DNA of 31,144 nt from a virus. Position numbers and translations under genes: made by a program. The notes under the pieces were generated by a model, which was not told where the DNA came from, ran no database searches, and was given only the letters and a program-made list of their open reading frames with translations. The stretch is taken from positions 1 through 31,144 of IMG/VR virus record IMGVR_UViG_3300047388_000198; one strand, given 5' to 3'. The stretch's first letter is position 1. Each line of letters starts with the position of its first letter. Shown here piece after piece: positions 2,772 to 31,144 of this stretch.

Positions 2772-5150
2772 CTACTGTACTCTCTCTACTGCTGCATAAA
2801 GCGCGTACTTGGCCGTCCCGAACAGCCCTGTGTGGGCTGTCGAATACGCGATGCTGCCGGAGTTGAGCTGCACGAAAATCGAGCCCTGCGTTCGTCCGGT
2901 GCCGGTCAGCAACTGCGCCGTACTGGCCTGTGTCGCCGCTCCCGCGGTGTCCGTGTACGTAATCGTCAGCGTAACCGCGCCTGCTGTAGCGTCAGCCGTG
3001 GTGTCCTCCAGCGCATAGCTCACTCTGTACAGGCCAGCGACGTTAGCGCCGGTGAAGTTCGTCGACCCGATGTCAGCCGACTGGTTCGTTGTCGAAACCG
3101 TCGTCACCACGCCAGTGATGCCCGAGCCGACGACTGTCGTGATCGAGCTATCCGTCAAACGGCCGTTGGTCGTGGCTACCGGGATCTTGCCCGACGTGAG
3201 CGCTGCATCATTCAGCGCGATCTCCTTGCGCGCCGCGCCTGTCGTGATCGTGGCGTAGAGTTTGTCCGTCAAGAACTCGATGCCGCCTGCTTCGGCAGTC
3301 GTCATCAAGGTGCCAGACGTCAGTTTGATCGGCGCCGTGCTCGCCGCCGTCGTGCCTGCAGCAAGATGCAAATACGCAGTCGGGTTTGTAAGGCCGGCAC
3401 CAAGTCCCAGCGCCCCTGCCATGAAGCTCGGTGCGGTGCCGTTCATAAATACGTTGTACCGCGCCGTGCCGCTGGCCGCGAGGTTTCCATAGAAACCGTA
3501 GTTCGTCGTGGCTCCTGTCAGGTTTGATTCGACTCGGTAGCCGTACTGCGCGGTCACCGTCGAACCGGCGCCTATGGTGCCTTGCGAGGCATCGAAATGA
3601 ATCAGCGACGAAAGCGTGAACGCAGTTGCTGCCGTGCCCAAGCTCGTAGCGTAGCCAGCGCCAGTTGTAGCATCGGTGCTCGGGAAATTTCCAGATGCAT
3701 AGTAGCCCCGGACGGTCGTGTTGGTGAGTGCCGCAATGCCTACAGAAGCCTGCACAGCACTGAACGTATCTGGTGCGCCACCTACACCGACAATGCCCGT
3801 GAAGGCATTAGGGGCCGTGCCCGCTGCATAAAAACAATATCGAGACGCACCACTTGCTGCTATATTGCAGTGGAACCCGTAGTTTGTTGTCGCGCCAGTT
3901 AGGTTGCTTTCCGCAGCGAATCCCTTCTGCGTTGTGACGGCCGAACCGGCGCCTATCGTGCTCTGCTGCGCGTAGAAGTGCTGCAGGTTATTGAGTGTGA
4001 ACGATGAGGCCGCAGTGCTGGCCGAGCTGATGAAATAGCTAACGCTCTGCGTCGTCGTGCTCGGTATAACGCCTTGCGAACGAATGCCGTCAGCAGTTGT
4101 TCCGGTTGTCAGAGAACTCGCCGTCGTCAGTGCTGCAGTGGCGTTCGGAGAGCCGCCAACGCCGATAATACCGTTGAATTGACTCTTTGCCGTGCCACTG
4201 GCGAAAACCGCCAAGTTGTTCGTTCCGCTCGGAATGGCACTATAGAACCCATAGTTGTTCGTTGCGCTGATTAGCGAAGATTCTGCCGAGAACCCGATCT
4301 GCGTCGTGACGGCAGAAGATGCTCCGAACGTTCCTTGCGTCGCATAGAAGTGGCGGAGATTGTTGAGCGTGAAGCTCGCTGCCGCCGTGTTTGCGTTTGA
4401 ATAGAAATAGTTCGCGCTGCTAAGAACGTCCGATTGAATCGTCGCGTCGCTGGCATATCCGTATGCGGTCGTGCCGCCTGTGATGTTTTGTGAGTTGCGC
4501 AGACCATACGCCGTTAGCGACGACGCATTGATTCCGAACGCACCGATGATATTGTTCGAGAACGCGCCATCGCCGCGAAAGAAATTGGCCGAACTGCCGC
4601 CGGCTGCGAGCCGCGCTGGCGCCAACGTGCCGCTGCCAATGTTTGTGGCGTTTGTCGCATCCGTGTTGCAGCTTGCTGCCGCGTCGGAAAGATCGCCGCA
4701 CGCGGGCTGTGATGCAGCAGGAACGCCGCTGGTGCTGATTGAGGTCAGGAAGTTGTGCGATACCGCTGCCTTCGACTGCACTCCGCCCAGAGACGACGAT
4801 GACGGATTGGGCAACCTTGCTGCACCAAGCGTGCCGGAACTGATGTTGCTGGCGTTCGTGGTATCGGTCGTGGCGCTGGCGGCAAATGAGACGCCATTGG
4901 TCTTGGTGCACGTCAGCACGCCTGAGCCGCCAGGCGTTGTGCAATCGCCACTGAGCGCGGCCTGCATCGTCAGGTCGATATAGCCGAGCGGGTTGATTAG
5001 CGGCACCTTGGCCGCGTCTCCAGCGCCTGCGCTCGTGTCCTTGGCCGCGACGAGCCCATGATTCGGCGGGTTGCTGGTGACTAGTGTATTGGTCGCCGCA
5101 CCGGCTGAAATGGAAATCAGCAGCGCGAGCAGTGCATGGAATCGCATCAT
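2772..5150 (-). CDS. Large repeat-built tail fibre or appendage protein (792 aa)
   Basis: Residues 2-19 ([20 protein letters not shown]) look like a signal peptide, which is odd for a virion protein. A low-complexity Ala/Ser/Thr/Asn region with two similar SGTL.(A/P)ARL motifs follows. Three imperfect repeats of about 126 aa occupy roughly residues 200-326, 327-452 and 453-577. Each carries FTL..L.HF.A.Q.T.GA.S.VT.Q.G and an NYGF segment. The C-terminal ~100 residues end in [18 protein letters not shown] and resemble the trimerising jelly-roll knobs of phage fibres and TNF/C1q-like proteins. The start overlaps the collagen-like gene stop (ATGA). It is probably a receptor-binding or decorating fibre. 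Confidence 0.8.
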
Positions 5151-6133
5151 GGAATCGGCCCCTGTGGCGTCTGTTTGCTTATCAAGAATTCGGTCGCACT
5201 AAGCGCCGTTCCAAGCACGCTGACCATATTTCCACTCGCTGCCGGAGCGGTTACGGTGATATGCCCAGCCGTCGACGCGTCGAGATAGTAAACAGATCCG
5301 GCAGTAAGTCCACCACTCTGGCCAGTGACAACATCCCATAGCGCCGTCGTTAGCGTCACCATGCCACTATGTTGCACATTGCCTTGCGCCGCGACGATGA
5401 TCGATGCGTCAGTAATAAATCCGAATGCTCGGCAGTTTGCGGCATTGGAGTTTGCCTGAGCACGTTTTACGGTGTCGTTTCCAGTGATGTATACCGGCAT
5501 GCCGGCAACGATCGTTGTAGCGGCTTCACCATTCGTTACGGTTGACGTGAATGGTGCTGACGAGCCCGTGGCTCCAGTGTTTCCAGTCGCGCCTTGCGCT
5601 CCAGTTGCCCCCGCAGCACCCGTCGCTCCGGTAGCGCCAGTGTCTCCGGTTGCGCCCTGTGCGCCAGTAGCTCCCGTTGCGCCAGTTTCACCTGTCGCAC
5701 CCTGAGCACCGGTGGCACCAGCTGCGCCAGTGGCGCCCTTGACTCCGGTCCATGTCGCGATTGTATCGGCAGGAATTAGCGCAGGGTTTCCAACAACCTC
5801 TCCGCCGTATGCTGACGTATCAACGTGAATGTGATCGACGTCAACGTCGACGATCTTCCCAACAAGTTTGTTGGTACCGTCGAATATATAGACGTACTGA
5901 TCCAGCTCGTAGGCTGTCGTTGGAGTGTTAAATGGAACGATATAGACGCCCGCACCAATGGGGGATATAGCGCTGATGATTGGCTGAGCGCCAATTCCAT
6001 CAAGACCGGTCGCGCCAGCTGCTCCACGCGCACCATTTCCCTTGGCGACCATGTCGCGAGACTTGGTTATGGGAAATATCAGCCCTTTCCCCTGCCCACT
6101 CAGAAACACCAATGATAGCGGTTCATTGAGCAT
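5147..6133 (-). CDS. Collagen-like phage structural protein (328 aa)
   Basis: About 20 consecutive Gly-X-Y triplets, dominated by GAT, GAQ, GET and GAA, span roughly residues 130-190. A shorter set ([10 protein letters not shown]) lies near residue 35. Such stretches form trimeric collagen-like rods in phage fibres. The flanking N-terminal domain (~35-125) and the C-terminal domain (~195-328) look beta-rich. The start chosen is ATG 6131-6133, two bases after the upstream stop; a TTG 18 bases earlier is an alternative. The next gene is the large fibre, so this is probably a fibre-network connector or tail-fibre stem. The product class is clear; the exact role is inferred. Confidence 0.85.
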
Positions 6134-6135
6134 GT

Positions 6136-6798
6136 CTATGCAGCCGACCAACCGATAGAGATACCACCAGAATCGATCAGGAACTTTGCGCCACCGCTGT
6201 CGGTAATAACTACCTGAAAGTATCCATTTCCAAAAATATACAACGCAAGGACTGATGCTGCCACGGGGAAGTTAACTGTCTGGCCGCTCACATCAACTAT
6301 CCCAGCGATGGAATATAGCGGAGTTGGCGGCACAGGAACTGGTGGCGTTGGCACCGGTGGTACAGGCTCATACGGAGGCCACGGCGGCGTCGGGAAAGGT
6401 GGCGCCGGGGTGATTGGTGGCGATGAGTAAATGTTTAGCTCAGCCGTCATACCGGCAGCGAATGCAGGCGTCAACCATCCCAGCATTCCGCCGCTAGTAT
6501 AGGCGCCACCAAGGCGAGCTGCGTCCACTGAATTCAATTGCACAGTGTTCACGTCGACAACATGCACTTCGTACCACTGCGATGCCTCTGGCGGCCAAGC
6601 GCCAGCTTGCAGCGCATCGAGACCGGGAAGCTCGGCAATAGCGACCGGATAGCCTTCGGTAAGCCCGTGCCCAGTGACAGTCATCGTCAACGGAGTCAGT
6701 GCCGTAACCGCGGCAATGGGCTTGTAAATCCACGGCTCATTCGCCCAGCGATAGGTCGGATCGAAGTCTTCGCCTTGCGTGATGACGAGATTCGACAC
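6136..6798 (-). CDS. Virion protein with proline-rich linker (220 aa)
   Basis: Translation starts at GTG 6796-6798 behind AGGATAG. The N-terminal domain has a [13 protein letters not shown] segment, a pattern common in phage baseplate and fibre proteins. Residues ~126-160 form a proline-rich linker with repeated PP, TPP and VPP units. A small beta-rich domain of about 55 residues follows. A linker of this kind would hold two domains apart, consistent with a tail or fibre attachment protein. The family is not recognised. Confidence 0.75.
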
Positions 6799-6801
6799 GG
6801 G

Positions 6802-7536
6802 CTATCCTACGTGGTAGTTGCGACGACCGGAGCCCCATGACGAATTACCCCACGGGATGCCTCCGAATTTCACTTTGTACGGCTTGTCCTGACGCTTTTC
6901 GCGCTCAGTTTTTGCCAGCGCGCAGTAGTCCTCGAACATGACCTTGAAGTCAGATGCCTTTCCGGCATTGAACGTCTCGGCGTCTTTCTTGAGGTACGCC
7001 AGCGCCTCCATGCCCCACAGCAGGTAAATGTGGTGGAACGATGGGATCTCCAGCGGCACTACTTTCTCGACCGTGATCTCCGTTGGAAGTCGATACACAC
7101 TCAGCTGCGCAACGTCGCTGTCCTGTGGAATCCGAATCCACCGGATACGGCACTGATCCATGTCGGTGATGTATTCGCTTACCTGGCCGGTCGCCTGCAT
7201 GACGGAGGCGTTGTAGCAGAAGCCATAGTCGTCACGGTAGCCGGCGCCGGTTTTGAACTGGCCGACGTTCGCCGCCGTGATCTCGCGGCCATCGGACTTG
7301 CGAAACATCGCGTTGACGTACAAGATTCGGTCACTGAACGTCGACCACGGCACGTTCGTCTGAATGGGAACCTGCGTCATCGAGCTAGACGAGTCGGGAA
7401 TGCCATACGTGAGGCGGCAGAACATCTCCTGTGCCGCGCTCAAGTAGCCATAGGCTTCCTCATCGGACCACAGATACGGAACGATCGCGTCGTGGACGTC
7501 ACTGCGGAACCGCTTGACGACGTCGACGGGAGTCAT
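6802..7536 (-). CDS. Probable head-tail adaptor or connector protein (244 aa)
   Basis: The protein starts MTPVDVVKRFRSDVHDAIVPYLWSDEEA. This helical N-terminus with W-S-D/E-E is typical of short-tailed phage adaptor-like proteins (compare DUF6682-type annotations). A helical region around residues 180-225 (YLLWGMEALAYLKKDAETF) follows a more beta-like centre. It lies a few bases after the 136-aa gene and before the tail proteins, where head-completion proteins normally occur. The adaptor call is moderate. Confidence 0.75.
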   Translation of the reverse strand: MTPVDVVKRFRSDVHDAIVPYLWSDEEAYGYLSAAQEMFCRLTYGIPDSSSSMTQVPIQTNVPWSTFSDRILYVNAMFRKSDGREITAANVGQFKTGAGYRDDYGFCYNASVMQATGQVSEYITDMDQCRIRWIRIPQDSDVAQLSVYRLPTEITVEKVVPLEIPSFHHIYLLWGMEALAYLKKDAETFNAGKASDFKVMFEDYCALAKTEREKRQDKPYKVKFGGIPWGNSSWGSGRRNYHVG

Positions 7537-8019: not shown

Positions 8020-8496
8020 TTACAGCCCGTACCGCGATGCCGGCGGATTTTCGGTTTCGTGAGCGCGGCCAGGGTAGATGTAACGGACGATCACGATGGC
8101 GTGGCCTGCCGTCAGTGCCGCACCGGTGCCGCCCGTCAGCGTCACCGTTGCCAGCATCGGCAGCGCGGAGACGTTGTTGAACGGAGTACCGGTCAGCGCC
8201 GTATTACCGGTGGCAAAAATGTTGACAGCCGCACCGTAGCGCGTTGCCGAGCCAGTATCGCCCAGTGCCAGCGTTGCCGCGGTGAGCGGGCCAGCGCCAG
8301 CAAAGGCTGTCGTGACCAGCACGGAGCCGCCGGTAACGATGGCGCCGGCACCCATGATGCCGAACGCCTGAATCGCCGTGCCCGCAGTGATCTTGCCGTT
8401 GACGAAATCGGTATAGTCGATCGGCAGGGTGGCGGTCAGCTCGTACTGACGACCATAGTCCGGACCATAGCCAACTGCTGTGTCGAGATTGCTCAT
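8020..8496 (-). CDS. Probable capsid decoration (cement) protein (158 aa)
   Basis: The gene directly follows the major capsid gene and has AAGGAGCC before its ATG. The protein is Gly/Ala/Thr-rich and beta-like, with the segment LALGDTGSATRYGAAVNIFA in its middle, and lacks signal or membrane segments. In BPP-1-like phages a jelly-roll cement protein is encoded next to the capsid gene. The call here rests on position and composition, so it is an inference. Confidence 0.7.
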   Translation of the reverse strand: MSNLDTAVGYGPDYGRQYELTATLPIDYTDFVNGKITAGTAIQAFGIMGAGAIVTGGSVLVTTAFAGAGPLTAATLALGDTGSATRYGAAVNIFATGNTALTGTPFNNVSALPMLATVTLTGGTGAALTAGHAIVIVRYIYPGRAHETENPPASRYGL

Positions 8497-8508
8497 GTCG
8501 TTGGCTCC

Positions 8509-9630
8509 TTACTGCGCGACGTAGCAGGAAACAACACCAAAGTCCTGCACGGTGTTGTTGGAATAGATCGAGTTGAACTGCGGCTTCAGGAGACCGAACA
8601 ACTTCGACACCGAGATACCGAGCTGGTTCTCGTAGTCGAACTCTTTCTCCGTCCACTCCGCGATTCCAAGATCCGCCATGCCAAGCGCCTGTGCGCCGCA
8701 GAACAAAACCTGCGCGCCATTGACGTTGTTGCCAGCACCCCACATCGTCGAACCAGAAATGCCGCTGGACGAATTGTAGACGTGGCGGAACTCGTGGATG
8801 TAGATGCCATCGACCTTGACCGCGCTGCCGGTGAACAACGGATTGTCCGGGCCGCGCTTCTGCGCCCACTTGAGCGCGTCGAGGTAGTCCGCGTCCAGCT
8901 TCAGGCGGGCATTCGCCGAAGGCGTCACAAACATGTGGTAGGTTTCCTCACCGCCTGCCTCACGCACGCCACGAATGTACTGATTCTTCGCGTATGCCTT
9001 GAGCTGGACGATGGTGGCCCACTGGAGGTAATCGGTCGCAGTCACATTGCCCGTGACGGCATTGGCGCCGACGACGAGGTTCTGACCGGTGGCGTCCCAG
9101 CGCGTCACGCGCTGCGAGGTCGGTGCAGATACGTCGCTGGCAAAGGCCAGGTTGACGAGGTCCGAGCCCACACGCGGCGATCCGTTGTTGTGCATGGCAT
9201 ACGAGACGCCGGACATGCTAAGGAACGCCATCTGATCGATACGATCCGACGCCTGATAGGCCAGCTTGTCGCGCGAGTCCATACGGAAGTTGACGATCGA
9301 GCGCTGGTCGGAAATGCGACCCTCGCTGCGATTGGCGTTACGCCATTGGTCGATCTGGATGATCGTGTCGAAGGACTGCAACGATTCCTCGTTACCTTCC
9401 AGCGTGCGGTCTCCGGCGACGCCGTCACCGGTCAAGTCGGCGAGCAGTGTGATAACTGCTCGTGCGCCCTTCTCGGTACGCTTGAGTTCGGTGATGTGCT
9501 GAACGAGTGAGTTCGGCCCTTTACCGAGGAAGCGATTGATGAAGCTGTAGTTGCGCGCCTGCTGCCAGAATTGCAGTGACCATACCTGCTTTTGCTGGGT
9601 TGTCAGTCGCGCGAAATTAGTGAATGCGAT
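8509..9630 (-). CDS. Major capsid protein, N4-gp56 family, with apparent ATC start (373 aa)
   Basis: The protein forms the icosahedral shell. The sequence matches the N4-gp56 capsid family as I know it: AFTNFARLTTQQKQVWS, then FLGKGPNSLVQ, ELKRTEKGARAVITLLADL, GDGVAGDRTLEGNEE, and RIDQMAFLSMSGVSYA. Family members begin M-A-x-T-N-F, and that Met falls on ATC (9628-9630). This codon sits eight bases after AGGAG. A TAA lies four codons upstream in frame, so no earlier start exists. The first in-frame ATG/GTG/TTG is TTG at 9435, which would delete 65 conserved residues. A real ATC start or a single base error is possible. A sigma70-like promoter and a hairpin-rich leader lie upstream. Confidence 0.9.
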   Translation of the reverse strand: MAFTNFARLTTQQKQVWSLQFWQQARNYSFINRFLGKGPNSLVQHITELKRTEKGARAVITLLADLTGDGVAGDRTLEGNEESLQSFDTIIQIDQWRNANRSEGRISDQRSIVNFRMDSRDKLAYQASDRIDQMAFLSMSGVSYAMHNNGSPRVGSDLVNLAFASDVSAPTSQRVTRWDATGQNLVVGANAVTGNVTATDYLQWATIVQLKAYAKNQYIRGVREAGGEETYHMFVTPSANARLKLDADYLDALKWAQKRGPDNPLFTGSAVKVDGIYIHEFRHVYNSSSGISGSTMWGAGNNVNGAQVLFCGAQALGMADLGIAEWTEKEFDYENQLGISVSKLFGLLKPQFNSIYSNNTVQDFGVVSCYVAQ

Positions 9631-9682
9631 GACACGTACTCCTTACCTGCGTACTCGCAAATACAGCGCTGCTTTCCGGCTT

Positions 9683-9784: not shown

Positions 9785-9813
9785 AAGATATTTGTTTCTT
9801 GTGAGGTTGTCAA
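9785..9813 (-). promoter_or_regulatory. Sigma70-like promoter for the capsid operon
   Basis: On the minus strand there is a perfect TTGACA (9808-9813), a 17-base spacer and TATCTT (9785-9790, four of six matches). It lies immediately after the terminator-like hairpin that ends the preceding gene run, about 150 bases before the capsid start. The arrangement would give capsid and tail genes their own strong transcript. Confidence 0.65.
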
Positions 9814-9815
9814 GG

Positions 9816-9847
9816 AAGGCCGGCCCAGCCTATTCCGAGCCGGCCTT
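9816..9847 (-). terminator. Terminator-like hairpin after the lysis island
   Basis: AAGGCCGGC and GCCGGCCTT pair over nine bases around a 14-base loop, starting five bases beyond the stop of the Ig-like gene. The following minus-strand bases (CCTTGACAACC) are only weakly T-rich and already contain the next promoter, so termination may be partial. Confidence 0.55.
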
Positions 9848-9851
9848 GAAA

Positions 9852-10148
9852 TTACACGACATCCACAGTCACGGTCAGACCACCACCGGCCGCGGCGCTG
9901 ACGGTACACAGACACGTACCAGTGCCGATGCTGCCGCTGACAGGATCGGTGACGCTGGCGGTGACAGTCGATGTGCCGACGGCGATGAGTGCAATCGCAC
10001 CGGTGCCGGGGTCGATCGTCATCACGGAGCCGGCGCTGTTTTCCGACCAGATGGTGACGGTATTGGCTACCGTGTTGCCTTTGGAATCGGTCGCCGTGTT
10101 GGTGGCCTGGGCCTTGTTGCCTAGGGTGAGACTTGCGGGATTGGACAT
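9852..10148 (-). CDS. Small Ig-like (Big_2-type) domain protein (98 aa)
   Basis: The ATG at 10146-10148 follows GGAGAACGAA. The sequence is a single bacterial Ig-like domain: SNPASLTLGNKAQATNTATD, then VTIWSENSAGSVMTIDPGTG, then AIALIAVGTSTVTASVTD. Such domains sit on phage capsids or tails and bind surface glycans weakly. The frame is open farther upstream to a GTG at 10305-10307 that overlaps the previous stop (GTGA). That would add a His/Asp/Arg-rich 53-residue piece. I favour the ATG because of its binding site. It is probably a virion decoration or appendage protein. Confidence 0.75.
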   Translation of the reverse strand: MSNPASLTLGNKAQATNTATDSKGNTVANTVTIWSENSAGSVMTIDPGTGAIALIAVGTSTVTASVTDPVSGSIGTGTCLCTVSAAAGGGLTVTVDVV

Positions 10149-10171
10149 TTCGTTCTCCGAATCAATAAGGA

Positions 10172-10189
10172 CGCTCACGGAAATGTGAG
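10172..10189. repeat. Small inverted repeat upstream of the Ig-like gene
   Basis: GCTCAC and GTGAGC form a six-base stem with a six-base loop in the stretch between the 166-aa and Ig-like genes. It lies shortly upstream of the GGAGAA binding site and could shape translation of the Ig-like gene. Confidence 0.4.
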
Positions 10190-10303
10190 CATGACAGTGT
10201 AGCAACCGCTCTATTAACGCGCGCTGCAAGCGCAGCTCGTGCCAGAGTCTGCGCCATTCGTCTTTCTCACGACGGTCGTCGTCGTGATCGTGGCCGTGAT
10301 GTT

Positions 10304-10804
10304 TCACTTCGGCTTGTGCCAGCTCGGCATGTGCGCGAACACCTTCGCCCATGTGTCGTACTCATTGCCGATGCTCCACGCGCCGACGGGCAGCCAGTTC
10401 GGGCCGGCGATGTATTTCGCCAGACCGGCGCCGCCAGACTGCGCGACCATCTCACGGACACGGGTCCACATGCCGAGACCGCGATCGGCGCCGGCGGCAT
10501 TCGTCGTATTGATCGACACCGAGGCGTAGCCTTGGCTATTCGGGTCGAGGCTGAGCATGGTCGGCGCGACGGAGAACGTCTGGCCGGCGCATTCCGGATT
10601 CGGAACCACCGATGCGTCGAAGCTTACGAGACCGTTGTCGCGGTCAACCAGCGTCACGCCGACCGGCAGCGGCGCAAGTGCGCCGCCACTACCGCCGCCA
10701 GCGCTCGGTAGCGTTGCTGGGCACGGATACAACGTACCGGCGCGGTATGCCGCGACGATGAGCGCGACCCATTTGTTGAGGTTGTCGAGTGCTGCGTTGG
10801 ACAT
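10304..10804 (-). CDS. Hypothetical phage protein (166 aa)
   Basis: The ATG follows AGGAGC. The N-terminus (MSNAALDNLNKWVALIVAAY) is amphipathic. A Gly/Ser linker lies near residues 34-41, and an Ig-like or beta-rich segment covers ~45-100. The C-terminus is rich in Trp and Gly (YIAGPNWLPVGAWSIGNEYD). No clear signal peptide or catalytic motif is visible. It follows a lipoprotein gene in the lysis/envelope run, so it may be virion-associated or envelope-associated. The family is not recognised. Confidence 0.7.
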   Translation of the reverse strand: MSNAALDNLNKWVALIVAAYRAGTLYPCPATLPSAGGGSGGALAPLPVGVTLVDRDNGLVSFDASVVPNPECAGQTFSVAPTMLSLDPNSQGYASVSINTTNAAGADRGLGMWTRVREMVAQSGGAGLAKYIAGPNWLPVGAWSIGNEYDTWAKVFAHMPSWHKPK

Positions 10805-10813
10805 GTGATGCTC

Positions 10814-11041
10814 CTAGGGGTTCGGCTTCGCAGCCGGAACGGTGACGGTGGTCGTCGTGGTGGTGCCTTCCGGCGCGCAACTGATGTCGAAGGCGACGGT
10901 CGCGGTGCCGAGAGTGCCGCCGACGCTGCCTGTGTAGTGGCGCGTGCAGTCGTGGCTCAAGTTGTCGAGGAAGGGCTTCATCTGGTCGGCGGCACAGCCT
11001 GGCAGCAAAGCGGCGCAAAGCACGAATGCTAGTCGTTTCAT
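10814..11041 (-). CDS. Small lipoprotein (75 aa)
   Basis: The ATG at 11039-11041 overlaps the DUF1353 gene stop (ATGA) and follows GGAGCG. Residues 1-16 are a lipoprotein signal with lipobox LLPGC (MKRLAFVLCAALLPGC). The mature part is short and ends in a Thr-rich, Pro-rich tail. Next to endolysin and holin-like genes, a small outer-membrane lipoprotein could be the outer spanin subunit. No matching inner spanin is certain, so this is only a possibility. Confidence 0.7.
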   Translation of the reverse strand: MKRLAFVLCAALLPGCAADQMKPFLDNLSHDCTRHYTGSVGGTLGTATVAFDISCAPEGTTTTTTVTVPAAKPNP

Positions 11042-11490
11042 TTTTTCGCTCCGAGTAAGTCTGGAAGACATGCGTATGGAGGGACCGGCTTGATGCCAGC
11101 CATCCGCGAATAACCAGCGGCCTTCAACTCAGAATTATGGTCCCACGCACCTTGACCAAACAAATGCACCGCTGTGTATATTTGTTCCACTGTGGATTTT
11201 TCCACACCGAGTAACGTCATTGCTTCACTAAGCAAGCAATCTGCGGTATCGCGTGAGCAAGGCTTCGACCAGTAAACCCAGTCATGCAGGCATGCTGCTG
11301 GACCATACCGTGACCACGGCGGGAATTGCACCCATAGAACGCGAGGAATACTGGCAAAATCTGTGCAAAAATTCTTTGGAACAATTATTTGCCCAGCCAA
11401 ATCACTCTGATACACCAGCGGCGCCTGAAACGCCCACTGCAACCCATCCGGCATCGGCGCAACCAGCATCATCGTACTGAAGAAACTCAA
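11038..11490 (-). CDS. DUF1353-family protein (150 aa)
   Basis: The protein has the family hallmarks TDFASIPRVLW (residues ~43-53), then YGPAACLHDWVYW, and then a helical segment with ADCLLSEAM. The His-Asp pair and the TDFASIP loop are the conserved positions. DUF1353 proteins are frequent in tailed phages, often near lysis genes, and their biochemical activity is not established. Overlap with its neighbours on both sides (ATGA) shows it belongs to the operon. Confidence 0.85.
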   Translation of the reverse strand: MSFFSTMMLVAPMPDGLQWAFQAPLVYQSDLAGQIIVPKNFCTDFASIPRVLWVQFPPWSRYGPAACLHDWVYWSKPCSRDTADCLLSEAMTLLGVEKSTVEQIYTAVHLFGQGAWDHNSELKAAGYSRMAGIKPVPPYACLPDLLGAKK

Positions 11491-11774
11491 GGCTGCCGCT
11501 CCGCAGCAAGGAACTCCGCGACGCGCTTGCGGGCTTCTGAGATCGAATCATCCGTCATCTCACTTTCCGCAGTCATTAGTGCCGCTGATGCATTGTAGTG
11601 CGCGGTCCTTACCGAGTCGCAGCGCTGGTGTACGGCGCAGTACGAGTCCTCGGCATCTGACGCAGTGACGTAGGATTGCTTGATGACGTCCAGATCGTGA
11701 CGCTGGCTCGACGTCGGCTGGCAGCAACTGCAAGCCACAAGCATCAGCATCATTAAGAACGACAGGTGCCTCAT
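11487..11774 (-). CDS. Small lipoprotein, possible spanin-like subunit (95 aa)
   Basis: An N-terminal signal with lipobox LVAC is visible (MRHLSFLMMLMLVAC). The mature protein is helical and charged, with heptad-like spacing after residue ~25 and an Ala/Glu-rich C-terminus. Cysteines occur at several positions near the processing site. The gene overlaps its neighbours as ATGA on both sides. A spanin or envelope-anchored role is a guess from the lipobox and the lysis context. Confidence 0.75.
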   Translation of the reverse strand: MRHLSFLMMLMLVACSCCQPTSSQRHDLDVIKQSYVTASDAEDSYCAVHQRCDSVRTAHYNASAALMTAESEMTDDSISEARKRVAEFLAAERQP

Positions 11775-11929
11775 TTCTTTGGCTCGATCAGCTTCATGAA
11801 TTTTTCCAGTTCCCGCGTGTGTCGGCGCAGGATAGTGTCTGCCTTTTTCTGTTGGAATTCGTTCATGGTATTCCAGCGACTAGCGAACTTCGCCAGCATT
11901 ATTTTCGCGGCCTCGCGTTCGCCGTTCAT
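11771..11929 (-). CDS. Very small charged helical protein (52 aa)
   Basis: The ATG at 11927-11929 overlaps the upstream stop as ATGA, and its own stop overlaps the lipoprotein start. The protein is almost entirely helical and basic (MNGEREAAKIMLAKFASRW, then QQKKADTILRRHTRELEKF). It is probably cytoplasmic. No family is recognised, but the exact fit between two neighbours supports that it is translated. Confidence 0.7.
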   Translation of the reverse strand: MNGEREAAKIMLAKFASRWNTMNEFQQKKADTILRRHTRELEKFMKLIEPKK

Positions 11930-12519
11930 GACGGAAAAAATCTTGAAGCAATGGCGAGTAGAAGCATGACGCCAGAAATAATGTATGCCACCATCGCTGA
12001 CGCACCTTTTTGAGATCCAGACTGCGTGGCGCTGCCTTCCTTCAACGTCTCAAGGCTTGCCAATATCTTCGTCATCATGGGGTCGGTGTAAGCCTGCTTG
12101 CCCTGACCCTCATAGGCCGATTTTTCCAGCGATGCGATCCGGTCAGTTACCCGGTCAAACAACCGCGCTGTTTGCTCAGCCAAGGTCGTCGCTGTGTTCT
12201 GCACGGCCTTTCTCAAATTCTCAGAATCTACCTCAGTCCGTTCCGACAGGGCTTGCACGGCCGCTACATCGATGGATCGGATCGATAGCAGCCGGTCTTG
12301 TTCTGCTTTGTGTATGTCCCTGTCGTGCGTGGAGTGCAGTTGCATCAGTTTTTCAAGCCAATTTATGTTGCTGTCCACCAGACTTTTTAGCCCTCGCAAC
12401 TCGCACTCGATGAGCGCAGTATTCGCCGCACGAAGATCATCTTGCCGAGCATTCGCCGCTTGGCTCAACGCAATGACGTTGGCCGTAGGGTCGATGATCT
12501 TCGTGCGTTCTCTTTTCAA
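11926..12519 (-). CDS. Coiled-coil protein with C-terminal membrane anchor (197 aa)
   Basis: The protein begins with a DPTANV.AL..AA..RQDDLR pattern that I know from a widespread phage/bacterial family of unknown function. A long coiled coil follows (~20-150). A single hydrophobic segment (AYIISGVMLLLAIASRFF) ends the protein, so it is probably tail-anchored in the inner membrane. The only in-frame start is TTG (12517-12519). It has no clear binding site, and an in-frame TGA lies two codons upstream. It lies between the holin-like gene and the lipoproteins. Confidence 0.75.
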   Translation of the reverse strand: MKRERTKIIDPTANVIALSQAANARQDDLRAANTALIECELRGLKSLVDSNINWLEKLMQLHSTHDRDIHKAEQDRLLSIRSIDVAAVQALSERTEVDSENLRKAVQNTATTLAEQTARLFDRVTDRIASLEKSAYEGQGKQAYTDPMMTKILASLETLKEGSATQSGSQKGASAMVAYIISGVMLLLAIASRFFPS

Positions 12520-12541
12520 GTCACATCACGGACTAGCGGCA

Positions 12542-13168
12542 TCACGGACCGGGATTGAAGTTCGGCTCGTTCGGGTTGTTCTGGATCGGCTTGGTCGGGT
12601 CATACTTCGCGTTCAGATGCACGGCATCCGGCGCAACATAGCCATCATCACCCGGCTGCGGGTCGGGCTTGATGATCTGGCCGGGGGCTTTCGGATTCTG
12701 GTTCGACATGTCTTTCTCCTTGGAAATAGGAGCATCGGCAACTACCGACGCGGTCTGACCGGCGTGTAGCGGTACAGTGACCGTGGCCGGAGTCGGGGTA
12801 GTCTGCGCCGGAGCGGCTGTACCTGCAACAACGGGTGCGTGGCTTGAGGTTGTCGTGGTCGTAGTGGTACTTGGAGGTGGATTCGCCGCCGCCTGCGCCT
12901 TAGCCGCGGTTATAGCCATCGTCGAGATCGTCTCGGCCTGCTTCTTCGCCTCCTGGCTCGTCCTGAAAAACCAACCAATGATGATGCCGACTTGCAGGAG
13001 AACGGCGCCGGTGATCTGCGATATGTTGCTCGTGTTCTCCGTCGGAATCTTGATGAACATGAAGCCGTAGGTCAGCCCGTATAGCTCCAATATCAGGAGA
13101 AAAGCGATGAGGCCGCCGAACCAGTTCAGCGTCTGCGGCTGCGATTGGTCGCCGGAGAGTTCGGTCAT
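12542..13168 (-). CDS. Holin-like membrane protein with Thr-rich tail (208 aa)
   Basis: The ATG at 13166-13168 overlaps the DUF3309 stop (ATGA). Two membrane segments lie near residues 14-38 (LNWFGGLIAFLLILELYGL) and 49-68. An Ala-rich helix and a long Thr/Pro/Ala-rich tail from residue ~95 follow. Gene position next to the endolysin and the membrane topology suggest a holin. The last 55 codons can also be read as a separate product: ATG 12707-12709 is preceded by AAGGAGA. That piece (MSNQNPKAPGQ...) is polar. I annotate the long form and regard the internal start as possible. Confidence 0.7.
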   Translation of the reverse strand: MTELSGDQSQPQTLNWFGGLIAFLLILELYGLTYGFMFIKIPTENTSNISQITGAVLLQVGIIIGWFFRTSQEAKKQAETISTMAITAAKAQAAANPPPSTTTTTTTSSHAPVVAGTAAPAQTTPTPATVTVPLHAGQTASVVADAPISKEKDMSNQNPKAPGQIIKPDPQPGDDGYVAPDAVHLNAKYDPTKPIQNNPNEPNFNPGP

Positions 13169-13329
13169 ATACGCCCAGCGATCCACAGAATCAGCACGAT
13201 GAGCAGGATCAGACCCAGCCCACCGCCGCCGTAATAGCCGGTGCCGTAGAACTGGCCACCACCGATGCCACTGAAGCCACCGAGAAGAAGAATGACGATA
13301 ATGATGAGAAGAATTGCGCCAAGTGACAT
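13165..13329 (-). CDS. DUF3309-type small membrane peptide (54 aa)
   Basis: The protein is two hydrophobic helices (MSLGAILLIIIVILLLGG and LGLILLIVLILWIAGRI) around a Gly/Tyr-rich loop. This is the DUF3309 pattern, known from many proteobacteria and some phages and of unknown function. The ATG at 13327-13329 follows TAGGAGA, and the stop overlaps the next start. In a lysis cassette such a protein could act as an accessory holin; that is inference. Confidence 0.8.
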   Translation of the reverse strand: MSLGAILLIIIVILLLGGFSGIGGGQFYGTGYYGGGGLGLILLIVLILWIAGRI

Positions 13330-13338
13330 GATAGTCTC

Positions 13339-13821
13339 CTACGAATCGACCGCGCCGTAGCGGAGGTCTTGAGCGGCGCGGCCGGCCCAACCCTTACCGA
13401 AGCGCGGCCATGTGCTCAGCGCGCGCCAGAAATCGAGACGTTCAGCTACAAAGCGCATGATCGCGTCGGACTCTGACGTTCGCGCCATCGCAGCCTGAGA
13501 GATTGGTCCCCAGTGACCGTCATCAGCGACGCCGACGGCGCGCTGCAATTTTCGGATCGCGGTTGAGATACCTGAATTGACGGCGAAGTCGAATGCCTGA
13601 AACAGCACCGACTCCGGCATCTTATCGAGCGTCAGCGGCATCCAAAAATCACGCAGATATATCGCTTTCGCGCCGTTGAGAGACAGGTTCTTGATGTCGA
13701 CGTTCGGATAGCTGCGCTTGCTGATTCCCCACTGCGTTTCACCACCTGGGTCAGCAGGATCGTTGCTGTATCCGCCCTCGCTACCGAGGACGCGATCAAA
13801 GGCAGTATCGAAGTCAACCAT
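13339..13821 (-). CDS. Endolysin, GH108 muramidase (160 aa)
   Basis: The enzyme cleaves the glycan strands of peptidoglycan. The catalytic Glu15 lies in VLGSEGGYSNDPADPGGETQ, the GH108 signature, followed by WGISKRSYP. A C-terminal peptidoglycan-binding type 3 region includes LQRAVGVADDGHWGP. Length fits the family. There is no N-terminal signal or membrane anchor, so release would need a holin. The neighbouring 44-aa, DUF3309 and holin-like membrane proteins are candidates. The start ATG overlaps the 44-aa gene stop as TGATG. Confidence 0.95.
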   Translation of the reverse strand: MVDFDTAFDRVLGSEGGYSNDPADPGGETQWGISKRSYPNVDIKNLSLNGAKAIYLRDFWMPLTLDKMPESVLFQAFDFAVNSGISTAIRKLQRAVGVADDGHWGPISQAAMARTSESDAIMRFVAERLDFWRALSTWPRFGKGWAGRAAQDLRYGAVDS

Positions 13822-13955
13822 CAGATAAAACGCTCCCGAGCATGCTCGTCCTGAGCCCGCTCCTTTTTCTCAGCGCGTATAAAAATCCAGTACGCGGCGA
13901 CGTAAGGAGCCAACATGGCGATGACGATACCAACGCAACCAGCGAAGGAAATCAT
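13821..13955 (-). CDS. Small single-span membrane protein (44 aa)
   Basis: The protein has one hydrophobic segment (MISFAGCVGIVIAMLAPYVA) followed by YWIFIRAEKKERAQDEHA, a highly charged tail. Its ATG (13953-13955) overlaps the upstream stop (ATGA) and its stop overlaps the endolysin start (TGATG). Position directly before the endolysin and the topology resemble a pinholin or antiholin, but this is unproven. Confidence 0.75.
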   Translation of the reverse strand: MISFAGCVGIVIAMLAPYVAAYWIFIRAEKKERAQDEHARERFI

Positions 13956-14272
13956 GGCCGCTTACCTTCCTCAATGCGCTGGATTCGGTAGTGGTCATCG
14001 GCCTGCCGAAGATCCGATGACTTGACGTGCTCTGCCAACGTCTCCCCGGCGAGTCTGAGACGTTGCAGTTCGTTGACGATTTGCTGCTGCTGGTTTGTTA
14101 GCTTGTCGACTGCGCTTTTCATCATTTCCTGCGCGTCCGTAAGCCCTTTGTAGAAGATTCCTGCGGTCAGCGCAAACCCGAGAAGGCTAACCCCGTACCG
14201 CTCCCAAGCATCACGGCGGAACTGGCTTAAGCCATTCCCATTTCCGTGACCATTGGGAGCGGTGTTGCTCAC
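13952..14272 (-). CDS. Membrane protein with N-terminal anchor and coiled coil (106 aa)
   Basis: Translation begins at GTG 14270-14272, overlapping the previous stop as GTGA. After a Gly/Asn-rich start there is one membrane segment near residues 28-44 (YGVSLLGFALTAGIFYKGL). A coiled-coil region rich in Gln, Leu and Arg follows. This is the layout of an inner-membrane spanin, although no lipoprotein gene is nested inside it. An anchored cell-envelope or lysis role is inferred. Confidence 0.75.
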   Translation of the reverse strand: MSNTAPNGHGNGNGLSQFRRDAWERYGVSLLGFALTAGIFYKGLTDAQEMMKSAVDKLTNQQQQIVNELQRLRLAGETLAEHVKSSDLRQADDHYRIQRIEEGKRP

Positions 14273-14616
14273 GGCCCAGCGACCTCTGCAAGCAACGCCT
14301 CGGCGAGCCCGTTATAGGTCTCGACGGCTTTCGAGATCACCATCTTGTCGTGGTTGTTTAGGAACTTCTTCGACAGCAGCGGCTGGATGGTGCCGACGAC
14401 GCTGACCATCATGATGTTGGCGCGATCCTTCTGCGGATCGCTCATGACTTCTTCACCATCGTACGTTGCGGTGCCGAGATCGCACTCGGACTGCGCATTG
14501 CCTATCGCAATCTGAAGCTCGACGGTAGAATCGCCAGCCCACAAACCAATGGCGGTGCGCATCAAGGCTTGGAGCAGGTTCCCGGTGATGATGATTTTGC
14601 AGGCGACGCCAGAAAT
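14269..14616 (-). CDS. Hypothetical protein with possible ATT start (115 aa)
   Basis: The ordinary ATG at 14560-14562 has no ribosome binding site. Seventeen codons earlier, in the same open frame, ATT (14614-14616) follows AGGAGTACGTGTC. This is the same leader that precedes the capsid gene. The extension (ISGVACKIIITGNLLQAL) is open and hydrophobic. The remainder contains MSDPQKDRANIMMVSVVG and a helical C-terminus with AVETYNGLAEALLAEVAG. The family is not recognised. The gene overlaps the next by GTGA. Confidence 0.65.
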   Translation of the reverse strand: MSGVACKIIITGNLLQALMRTAIGLWAGDSTVELQIAIGNAQSECDLGTATYDGEEVMSDPQKDRANIMMVSVVGTIQPLLSKKFLNNHDKMVISKAVETYNGLAEALLAEVAGP

Positions 14617-14656
14617 GACACGTACTCCTATGCTGGGTGGATATTGCTACGCCGAA

Positions 14657-14935
14657 CTATTCCTTCGGTTGAGTTGGACCATTACCCTGCCGGTCTTCCG
14701 GCTTTGCCTTGCCTTCGCGAATCATTATTGCGTTTGTGTTCTCGACATCGACTCCGATGAGACGAACTTCCTTGCCTACGCTATCCATGCTCTTTGACAG
14801 AAAATCTATGCCGCGATCGAACTGGTGTCCAAGCGCCAGCATCTCCATCAGACACGCACCGAGTAGAAAAGCTATCACGATCAGTGCGAACAAAATCCAT
14901 TTTGGCGTGCCACCTATCTCGCTCTCCGTCTGCAT
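14657..14935 (-). CDS. Single-span membrane protein (92 aa)
   Basis: The ATG at 14933-14935 (MQTESEIGGTPKWILFALIV) follows GAGGG at seven bases. One membrane helix lies at about residues 13-33, followed by a soluble helical and charged part with DRGIDFLSKSMDSVG. A TTG six codons earlier is a weaker start. It lies within the lysis/envelope island. No family is recognised. Confidence 0.75.
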   Translation of the reverse strand: MQTESEIGGTPKWILFALIVIAFLLGACLMEMLALGHQFDRGIDFLSKSMDSVGKEVRLIGVDVENTNAIMIREGKAKPEDRQGNGPTQPKE

Positions 14936-15043
14936 TGGCCAACCCTCAGTCAATGCCCCATCACCCTGAAGCGTGGACCATGCGTAACCAAACCCCTTGG
15001 TCGCTCACGGTATTGTTCTACTCCACCACCATGCCGTGCGCAA

Positions 15044-15214
15044 CTACGCACGCCGCAGGGCCGATTTACTCTTTTTCTGGTACTTGCCTGCCGCCTTGTC
15101 TGCGCCGGTGAACTCCTTCGCTACAGCAACGGATGGCGCCTTCCTACCGTCGGGCTTGAATCCGTGCTCGACGGCTTGGAAGAAGCGGTGCTGCTTTAGC
15201 GAGGACGAAGGCAT
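15044..15214 (-). CDS. Small basic phage protein (56 aa)
   Basis: ATG 15212-15214 overlaps the scaffold stop as TAATG. The protein begins MPSSSLKQHRFFQAVEHGF and contains KAPSVAVAKEFTGADKAAG, then a basic tail. This matches a common short phage protein pattern (MP.KS..QH..M...AHG...K.PS.AVAKEF..AD). Its role is unknown. The gene lies next to the scaffold, so a head-assembly function is possible. Confidence 0.8.
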   Translation of the reverse strand: MPSSSLKQHRFFQAVEHGFKPDGRKAPSVAVAKEFTGADKAAGKYQKKSKSALRRA

Positions 15215-16113
15215 TACTTCAGCACATCGCCACGCAGAATCGCCAGCGTCTTCTCATCCATCTTGGCGAGGTCATCCACATTGCGCGGCATCCGCGGCTT
15301 GGTATCGTCGCCAGAGACGTCGCGACCGACGCCATTGGTCTTCGGCGGCTGCTTGCCGACAGCGGCGATGGCGCGCTCACGGGCGAGCCTGGAGCGGTTC
15401 TTGCCATCGTCAGCGACCACAGCCGAGACACCGCGCGCCTTGAGAACGAGATCCGCGGCCTTCTTCAGCGCCACATGCTTCGGGTGCCGCGCCGAGAGCC
15501 CGGCGGCGATGTCGGCGATCTCATCCGTCAGCGCCTGATCGAACTGAGAGCTGGCCTCGTCGAGCTGCGGATATTTGGCCTCCAGCGCCGATAACGCGGT
15601 GTCGTAGCGCGAGTCGTCGGTCGCCCGGCTCCTGGCGTCGTCGCTGCGCAGGATCGTCTTGAAGTCGACGATGTAGTCCTGTACGGCCGACAGCTCCTTG
15701 CGCAAGCGCTTGGCATCGTCTTTCTTGCCGTCCATGATCGCATCATCGAGATCGCCTTCCAGCTTCTCCTTGTGCGTCATCATGCGCGTGAGCTGTTCCT
15801 GCGGCGAGATACGGCCCTTGTTCTTGGCCGCGTCGAGATCGCCACCGATCTGTTCGAGCTTGCCGCGCAGTTCCTCGTTGGCGCGCTTGAGATCCGCGAG
15901 CTGTTCCGCCGTCGGGTCTTTCGCCGCCTTGGCAGCAGCGGCAGCTTCCTCAGCCTCGCGCGCCTCGCGTTCCTCGTCGGTTTCGTCTTCCGGCGGGTCG
16001 TTGCCGGGACCGTCGCTCGGCAACTCGCTACCATCATCGCCTTCGTCGCCAGGCAACCGGTTCACTTCCTCCAGCAGTTCGGAGGGGGTCTTCTCAGAAT
16101 CACTCTTGGCCAT
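15214..16113 (-). CDS. Probable capsid scaffold protein (299 aa)
   Basis: The protein is strongly acidic at the N-terminus (DEGDDGSELPSDGPGNDPPE, then many Glu). It then forms long charged helices with coiled-coil spacing at ~65-150 and ends in a basic, Arg/Lys-rich C-terminal part. This layout is that of phage scaffolding proteins, in which the C-terminal region binds the capsid protein. It overlaps the portal by 14 bases and follows GGAGTAG. The capsid gene is unusually far away (about 5.5 kb). Confidence 0.75.
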   Translation of the reverse strand: MAKSDSEKTPSELLEEVNRLPGDEGDDGSELPSDGPGNDPPEDETDEEREAREAEEAAAAAKAAKDPTAEQLADLKRANEELRGKLEQIGGDLDAAKNKGRISPQEQLTRMMTHKEKLEGDLDDAIMDGKKDDAKRLRKELSAVQDYIVDFKTILRSDDARSRATDDSRYDTALSALEAKYPQLDEASSQFDQALTDEIADIAAGLSARHPKHVALKKAADLVLKARGVSAVVADDGKNRSRLARERAIAAVGKQPPKTNGVGRDVSGDDTKPRMPRNVDDLAKMDEKTLAILRGDVLK

Positions 16114-30018: not shown

Positions 30019-30174
30019 ATGACGACGACAGTGAAAGTACATGTGAACGGCAAATACCGCGCAACGGTGATTCAAGATGATCGCGAGCCGGTGATTGTCG
30101 AGGGAAACTACAACGGCGGATCGGGCGGGGCTGTGGTGGATGACGTGATCGCTTATCGAGGGTTTGAGAAATGA
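30019..30174 (+). CDS. Small beta-rich protein (51 aa)
   Basis: GGAGA lies before the ATG. The sequence MTTTVKVHVNGKYRATVIQD with a Gly-rich loop (GNYNGGSGGAVV) looks like a compact beta sandwich or barrel. Its stop overlaps the NADAR gene start as ATGA. The family is not recognised, though it may be translationally coupled to NADAR. Confidence 0.65.
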   Translation: MTTTVKVHVNGKYRATVIQDDREPVIVEGNYNGGSGGAVVDDVIAYRGFEK

Positions 30175-30695
30175 ACGCTGCAAAAATCGAGTCGCACAAA
30201 CTTGATACCGACTCGCAGGTATTTTTCTACGAGCAGGACTTCTATGTTTTGTCGAACTTTTCGGCCTTCGCGTTGTTCTGGCGGGGTATTCGGTTTGACA
30301 CGTCGGAGGCCGCATACCACTGGGAGAAGTTCCCTGATGCGCGTGCCGTAGAGGTCCGCAACGCGATCCGGTTTGCGCCATCCGCGCATGAGGCTTTCAA
30401 GATCGCCGAGCGCAACAAGGCATTGCGGCGGTCGGATTGGGATGATGTGAAGGTTGACTTCATGATCCAGATTCTACGCGCCAAAGTCAGTCAACACGAA
30501 TACGTCATGCGCAAGCTACTGGCCACTGGCGACCGCGAGTTGATCGAGGATTCATGGCGCGACGACTTCTGGGGCTGGGGTCCGAACCGCGACGGGAAGA
30601 ACATGCTCGGCAAGCTGTGGATGGAAATTCGCGCGGAGTACGCCACCCACCCACCCATGCGGCCCTCTATGGGCAGCTTGGTGGAGCGCGAATAG
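30171..30695 (+). CDS. NADAR (YbiA-like) ADP-ribose-acting enzyme (174 aa)
   Basis: The protein has the NADAR hallmarks: LSNFSAFALFWRGIRFDTSE, then AAYHWEKFP, SAHEAFKIAERNKALR, WDDVKVDFMIQILRAK, TGDRELIEDSW, then DDFWGWGPNRDGKNMLGKLW. Members hydrolyse N-glycosidic bonds. Some remove ADP-ribose from guanine in nucleic acid, counteracting DarT1-type toxins; YbiA itself is linked to riboflavin intermediates. The full length and the catalytic motif (DSW..DFWGWG) are intact. In a phage this would be an anti-defence enzyme or a metabolic repair enzyme; the first is an inference. Confidence 0.9.
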   Translation: MNAAKIESHKLDTDSQVFFYEQDFYVLSNFSAFALFWRGIRFDTSEAAYHWEKFPDARAVEVRNAIRFAPSAHEAFKIAERNKALRRSDWDDVKVDFMIQILRAKVSQHEYVMRKLLATGDRELIEDSWRDDFWGWGPNRDGKNMLGKLWMEIRAEYATHPPMRPSMGSLVERE

Positions 30696-31032: not shown

Positions 31033-31144
31033 TGGGTAACGCGCCGGACGGCGACGGCTCCGGCTCCGGCTCCGGCTCCGGCTACGGCTACGGCTCCGGC
31101 TCCGGCTCCGGCTACGGCTACGGCTCCGGCTACGGCTACGGCTC
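31032..31144 (+). CDS. Gly-Ser/Gly-Tyr dipeptide-repeat protein, cut by window edge
   Basis: ATG 31032-31034 overlaps the preceding stop as TGATG; an ATG four codons earlier is also possible. After MGNAPDGDG the frame is an exact array of six-base units encoding GSG and GYG dipeptides through the window end. The 3' end is not visible. Short Gly-rich proteins of this type occur in phages and bacteria, with unknown function. The low codon diversity (ggc tcc, ggc tac) points to slippage-driven growth. Confidence 0.7.
   Translation, partial: MGNAPDGDGSGSGSGSGYGYGSGSGSGYGYGSGYGYG
31056..31144 (+). repeat. Six-base tandem repeat (GGCTCC/GGCTAC)
   Basis: The DNA alternates GGCTCC and GGCTAC units without interruption to the window end, forming blocks such as two to four GGCTCC followed by two GGCTAC. 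This is a coding minisatellite that can change length by slippage, and it may also cause assembly errors. Confidence 0.8.

Follow-up and report, generated by a model that had tools for sequence, protein, structure and literature searches.

The major capsid gene of the virus record IMGVR_UViG_3300047388_000198, whose 31,144 bases are referred to here as the window, carries ATC at the codon where most of its relatives start translation. This codon lies behind a well-placed ribosome-binding site and in front of a stretch of 65 codons under purifying selection, and not one of the relatives compared starts its capsid gene with it. We infer that the ATC is probably a wrong consensus base or a variant that is non-functional or in the minority, and regard a genuine AUC start as less likely.

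Capsid reading frame and ribosome-binding site

The capsid-start region is present in a single copy in the window. Its minus strand reads, from about 9660 to 9600, cgcaggTAAGGAGtacgtgtc followed by ATC gca ttc act aat ttc. According to the first-pass annotation, the capsid frame is open for 65 codons above the TTG at 9435, up to a TAA, contains no upstream in-frame ATG, GTG or TTG, and carries the ATC eight bases after an AGGAG. All of this was confirmed: the frame is stop-free throughout, ATC 9630-9628 precedes TTG 9435 by 65 codons, none of the three standard start codons occurs in frame between TAA 9642-9640 and this TTG, and TAA and ATC are separated by GGA GTA CGT GTC. The features of the region are compiled in Table 1.

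Table 1. Features at the start of the capsid gene (window coordinates)
Feature	Position	Strand	Remarks
Major capsid protein gene	8509..9630	minus	373 codons from ATC; N4-gp56 / Phage_capsid_3 type
TTG, first standard in-frame start	9433..9435	minus	without Shine-Dalgarno sequence, within conserved domain; rejected as start
ATC at homologous start codon	9628..9630	minus	from sequence and relatives' start codons
Out-of-frame GTG	9633..9635	minus	frame of 10 codons up to TGA 9603; rejected as start
Shine-Dalgarno region, core TAAGGAG	9639..9645	minus	7-base match to anti-Shine-Dalgarno sequence; last G 8 bases before ATC
In-frame TAA closing the capsid frame upstream	9640..9642	minus	read from sequence
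Sigma-70-like promoter TTGACA-17-TATCTT	9785..9813	minus	10/12 matches; predicted
GC-rich hairpin, 13 pairs, strong, terminator-like	~9816..9848	minus	after upstream gene; predicted

Since a stop-free stretch of 65 codons is expected with a chance of about 11% from base composition alone, the evidence for the extension is its homology and not its openness. The extended protein matched Pfam PF13252 over residues 6-370 (137 bits, gathering score 23) and, from residue 2 onwards, the major head protein family PHROG 334 (273 bits), and narrowly missed NCBIfam TIGR04387 (58.1 bits, cut-off 60). Alignments obtained by tblastn with most relatives begin at residue 1. Thus, the extra residues fit the family N-terminus as had been proposed, and the two family peptides quoted in support, AFTNFARLTTQQKQVW and ELKRTEKGARAVITL, are both present. 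Purifying selection is stronger on the 65 N-terminal codons than on the rest of the capsid gene: divergence across relatives at codon positions 1, 2 and 3 was 0.27, 0.15 and 0.56 in the former as compared to 0.34, 0.25 and 0.50 in the latter. All of 122 distinct proteins share residues T4, N5 and F6. Judged from these comparisons, the 65-residue extension is a translated and strongly constrained part of the true capsid protein. As TTG 9435 in addition has no Shine-Dalgarno sequence, it does not qualify as the natural start. In the AlphaFold model, the capsid protein is weak over residues 40-117 (mean pLDDT 63.7), and the N-terminal arm is therefore not argued from this model. Antisense to the capsid gene, a 483-aa frame extends over 8059-9510 (plus strand); the relatives' antisense frame matches as well, and the frame is probably a shadow of conserved GC-rich capsid codons.

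With seven bases, the Shine-Dalgarno match ranks in the top 16% of relatives, a match of at least seven bases being present in 19 of 120. The spacing to the ATC falls into gap class 7, the second most common (26/120 relatives), within a range of 3-10 and mostly 5-9. In local folding predictions, 87% of relatives have a less accessible Shine-Dalgarno region than the window, and in 95% the start codon is less paired than the ATC. The capsid gene appears to be transcribed separately, as a predicted hairpin is followed by a predicted promoter, and the TTGACA-17-TATCTT motif at 9813-9785 is the likely source of this transcript. Searches for Rfam leader RNAs, introns or riboswitches gave no match at the gathering threshold, and relaxing the threshold added nothing but weak matches to the opposite strand, far below gathering scores. 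No tRNAs were found.

Start codons in related capsid genes

Relatives were gathered from viral contigs, bacterial genomes and named phages, resulting in 121 distinct start regions. In 103 of them the codon homologous to the ATC is the start codon (99 ATG, 3 GTG, 1 TTG), in 17 the start lies one codon downstream (16 ATG and, in relative L170, GTG), and in KPP25 an ATG six codons upstream is used. A search of related genomes for the codon at this position had been suggested by the first-pass annotation, which placed a conserved initiator Met there. When the search was carried out, standard starts at or near this codon were found in 121/121 relatives and ATC in none, the nearest capsid being only 68% identical. 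The nearest capsid relatives share 66-68% amino acid identity with the window's protein (L094 being the best), and exact-pattern searches for near relatives, using DNA patterns of the start region and of an N-terminal coding stretch, or the upstream gene and the portal, found none. The bacterial genomes that carry related capsids are mostly from proteobacteria.

Thus, since ATG is used by nearly all relatives, it was most likely also the ancestral start codon of the capsid gene, and the ATC appears to be a private single-base departure from it. This is the simplest history, since one substitution accounts for everything and both spacing and length fit the family.

A non-representative base or AUC initiation

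In the reading that we favour, a KPP25-like phage would have a capsid gene of the ordinary kind, with the TAAGGAG Shine-Dalgarno sequence setting the start of translation at 9630-9628, and functional virions most likely carry another codon than the printed ATC. The ATC would then be either a consensus error of the metagenome assembly or a non-functional or minority variant picked by the assembler, events that we judge to be a priori at least as frequent as a real AUC start. The major capsid protein is normally the most abundant product of a phage, and in our judgement few genes would tolerate a weak start less well than the capsid gene. Selection on the start codon is strongest in highly expressed genes, and for 61,358 ancestral AUG starts in prokaryotes one change to AUU, two to CUG and none to AUC are listed (PMC5622118). 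In E. coli, AUC and other weak starts reach about 0.04-3% of AUG with one leader and 0.1-0.3% with another (PMC9680021), and a capsid gene would be crippled by so low a yield. The near absence of AUG-to-AUC switches together with this low yield favours an error or variant. A base error had been listed as an alternative in the first-pass annotation; in light of the relatives' uniformly standard starts and these base rates, we rate it as more likely than the ATC start.

The other conserved window genes that were checked, including terminase, portal, head-closure, endolysin and the gp49/66-like gene, start normally, arguing against a genome-wide habit of odd starts. In detailed alignments, the window's ATG coincides with the relatives' start in the gp49/66-like gene, the endolysin gene and the gene at 6802-7536. 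Displaced starts of the first two had been considered, as homology seemed to run upstream, and were rejected because the relative's ATG aligned on that of the window. However, several observations speak against an error. Neither a second copy of the virus nor a near relative with another base at this position was found. The conserved window genes are unbroken, and nothing else in the window hints at poor sequence quality; when the check was widened to related contigs, their 122 capsid proteins were free of stops. Furthermore, where the window's protein has unusual residues in place of conserved ones, multi-base changes were seen on inspection among the differences, which look like real divergence and not like errors.

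A real and functional, although very inefficient, ATC start is possible but less likely in our view. If it were used, the fMet-tRNA would pair at two of three positions and the strong Shine-Dalgarno sequence would hold the ribosome, and discrimination by IF3 against start codons not ending in G (PMC4611024) would keep the yield low. This could be compensated by the gene's own strong promoter or by a host with permissive initiation. The length of the Shine-Dalgarno match, its normal spacing and accessibility, and the separate transcript suggested by the predicted promoter and terminator are in line with such a start. Natural non-canonical starts do exist: infC starts with ATT in E. coli and with ATC in Streptomyces, and sigR with GTC (PMC5472188), whereas the S. 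aureus genes cvfC1 (AUU) and ccpN (AUA), which have an extended Shine-Dalgarno sequence, reach about 10-30% of AUG (PMC13009471). Clostridial yields from AUC, AUU, AUA and CUG are far above those of E. coli: with one leader, C. butyricum reached 5-20% and C. sporogenes 7-17%, and the values were higher with another leader (PMC9680021). However, the known non-canonical starts belong to regulators of low expression, the ATC itself is predicted to be unusually paired, and the proteobacterial background of most related capsids would make AUC a weak start if E. coli is a guide. Literature searches gave no case of AUC, AUA or AUU initiation in a phage capsid. With respect to the ATC start postulated in the first-pass annotation, its anatomy therefore holds, i.e. 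the family start position, the well-spaced Shine-Dalgarno sequence and the lack of a usable standard start, but real initiation on the ATC, which no relative shares, does not find independent support. The more specific version, an AUC-initiated major capsid with strong Shine-Dalgarno sequence and dedicated promoter whose output is tied to host IF3 or permissive initiation, is slightly more doubtful still.

The loss of a three-base ATG codon behind an ATC, by an assembly fault or a genuine deletion, which would leave the ATC beside the Ala codon, is improbable. An ATC-ATG-GCA motif is common in relatives (e.g. L003, L021 and L082), but this history implies an ancestral gap of 10, found in 2/120 relatives, as compared to 26/120 for gap 7. 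Relative L101 reads ATC ATG CTT at its capsid start (~790-798), which shows how the loss of an ATG could leave an ATC. Finally, a start at one of the two standard codons near or inside the gene, either at GTG 9635 followed by a frame shift or at TTG 9435 with a shortened capsid protein as product, has next to no likelihood: the GTG, the sole nearby standard start, is out of frame with a Shine-Dalgarno gap of 2, outside the 3-10 of 120 relatives, its frame closes after 10 codons and no slippery site was seen by eye, so that the recoding event considered in the first-pass annotation is left unsupported, and the TTG, besides having no Shine-Dalgarno sequence, would delete 65 strongly conserved codons.

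Consequences, genome context and comparison with known systems

If the ATC is an error, it illustrates clearly how a single wrong base in a viral contig can misplace a gene start. If it were real, an essential, highly expressed gene would live with a start usually at about 1% of AUG in E. coli, and gene callers restricted to ATG, GTG and TTG would shorten the capsid protein by 65 residues.

Elsewhere in the window, a collagen-like repeat protein (PF01391) with a 45-base tandem repeat is encoded among the structural genes (5147-6151, minus strand), and a NADAR-domain protein (PF08719, E 3e-27) at 30171-30695 (plus strand). The NADAR family has links to ADP-ribose metabolism and, in some cases, to conflict between phage and host. 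The contig end falls inside a 6/18-base tandem repeat (ACGGCT / CGGCTCCGGCTACGGCTC; 31048-31144), which is probably the point where assembly stopped.

When compared to infC (ATT/ATC), sigR (GTC) and ccpN/cvfC1 (AUA/AUU), the window is alike in that a Shine-Dalgarno sequence precedes a non-canonical codon at the position of the homologous start. However, those genes encode low-level regulators or factors in which the odd codon has been tested or is conserved, whereas the ATC of the window belongs to a structural gene, was seen once and is not conserved (0/121 relatives, the best with 68% amino acid identity). The closest known parallel is the major capsid protein of Pseudomonas phage KPP25 / phiR18 (Kochitakasuvirus), which shares 60% amino acid identity with that of the window over residues 3-372. 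KPP25 differs in its capsid ATG, located six codons upstream of the window's ATC position, and in the spacing of its genes: in the window, the post-portal gene (15214-16113) is separated from the capsid gene by about 5.5 kb of lysis and other genes (9852-15213), among them an endolysin gene and many small genes, and the corresponding genes of KPP25 and AP1 by only ~160-180 bases. The gene order terminase-portal-hypothetical-capsid is the same in KPP25 / phiR18 and in the window.
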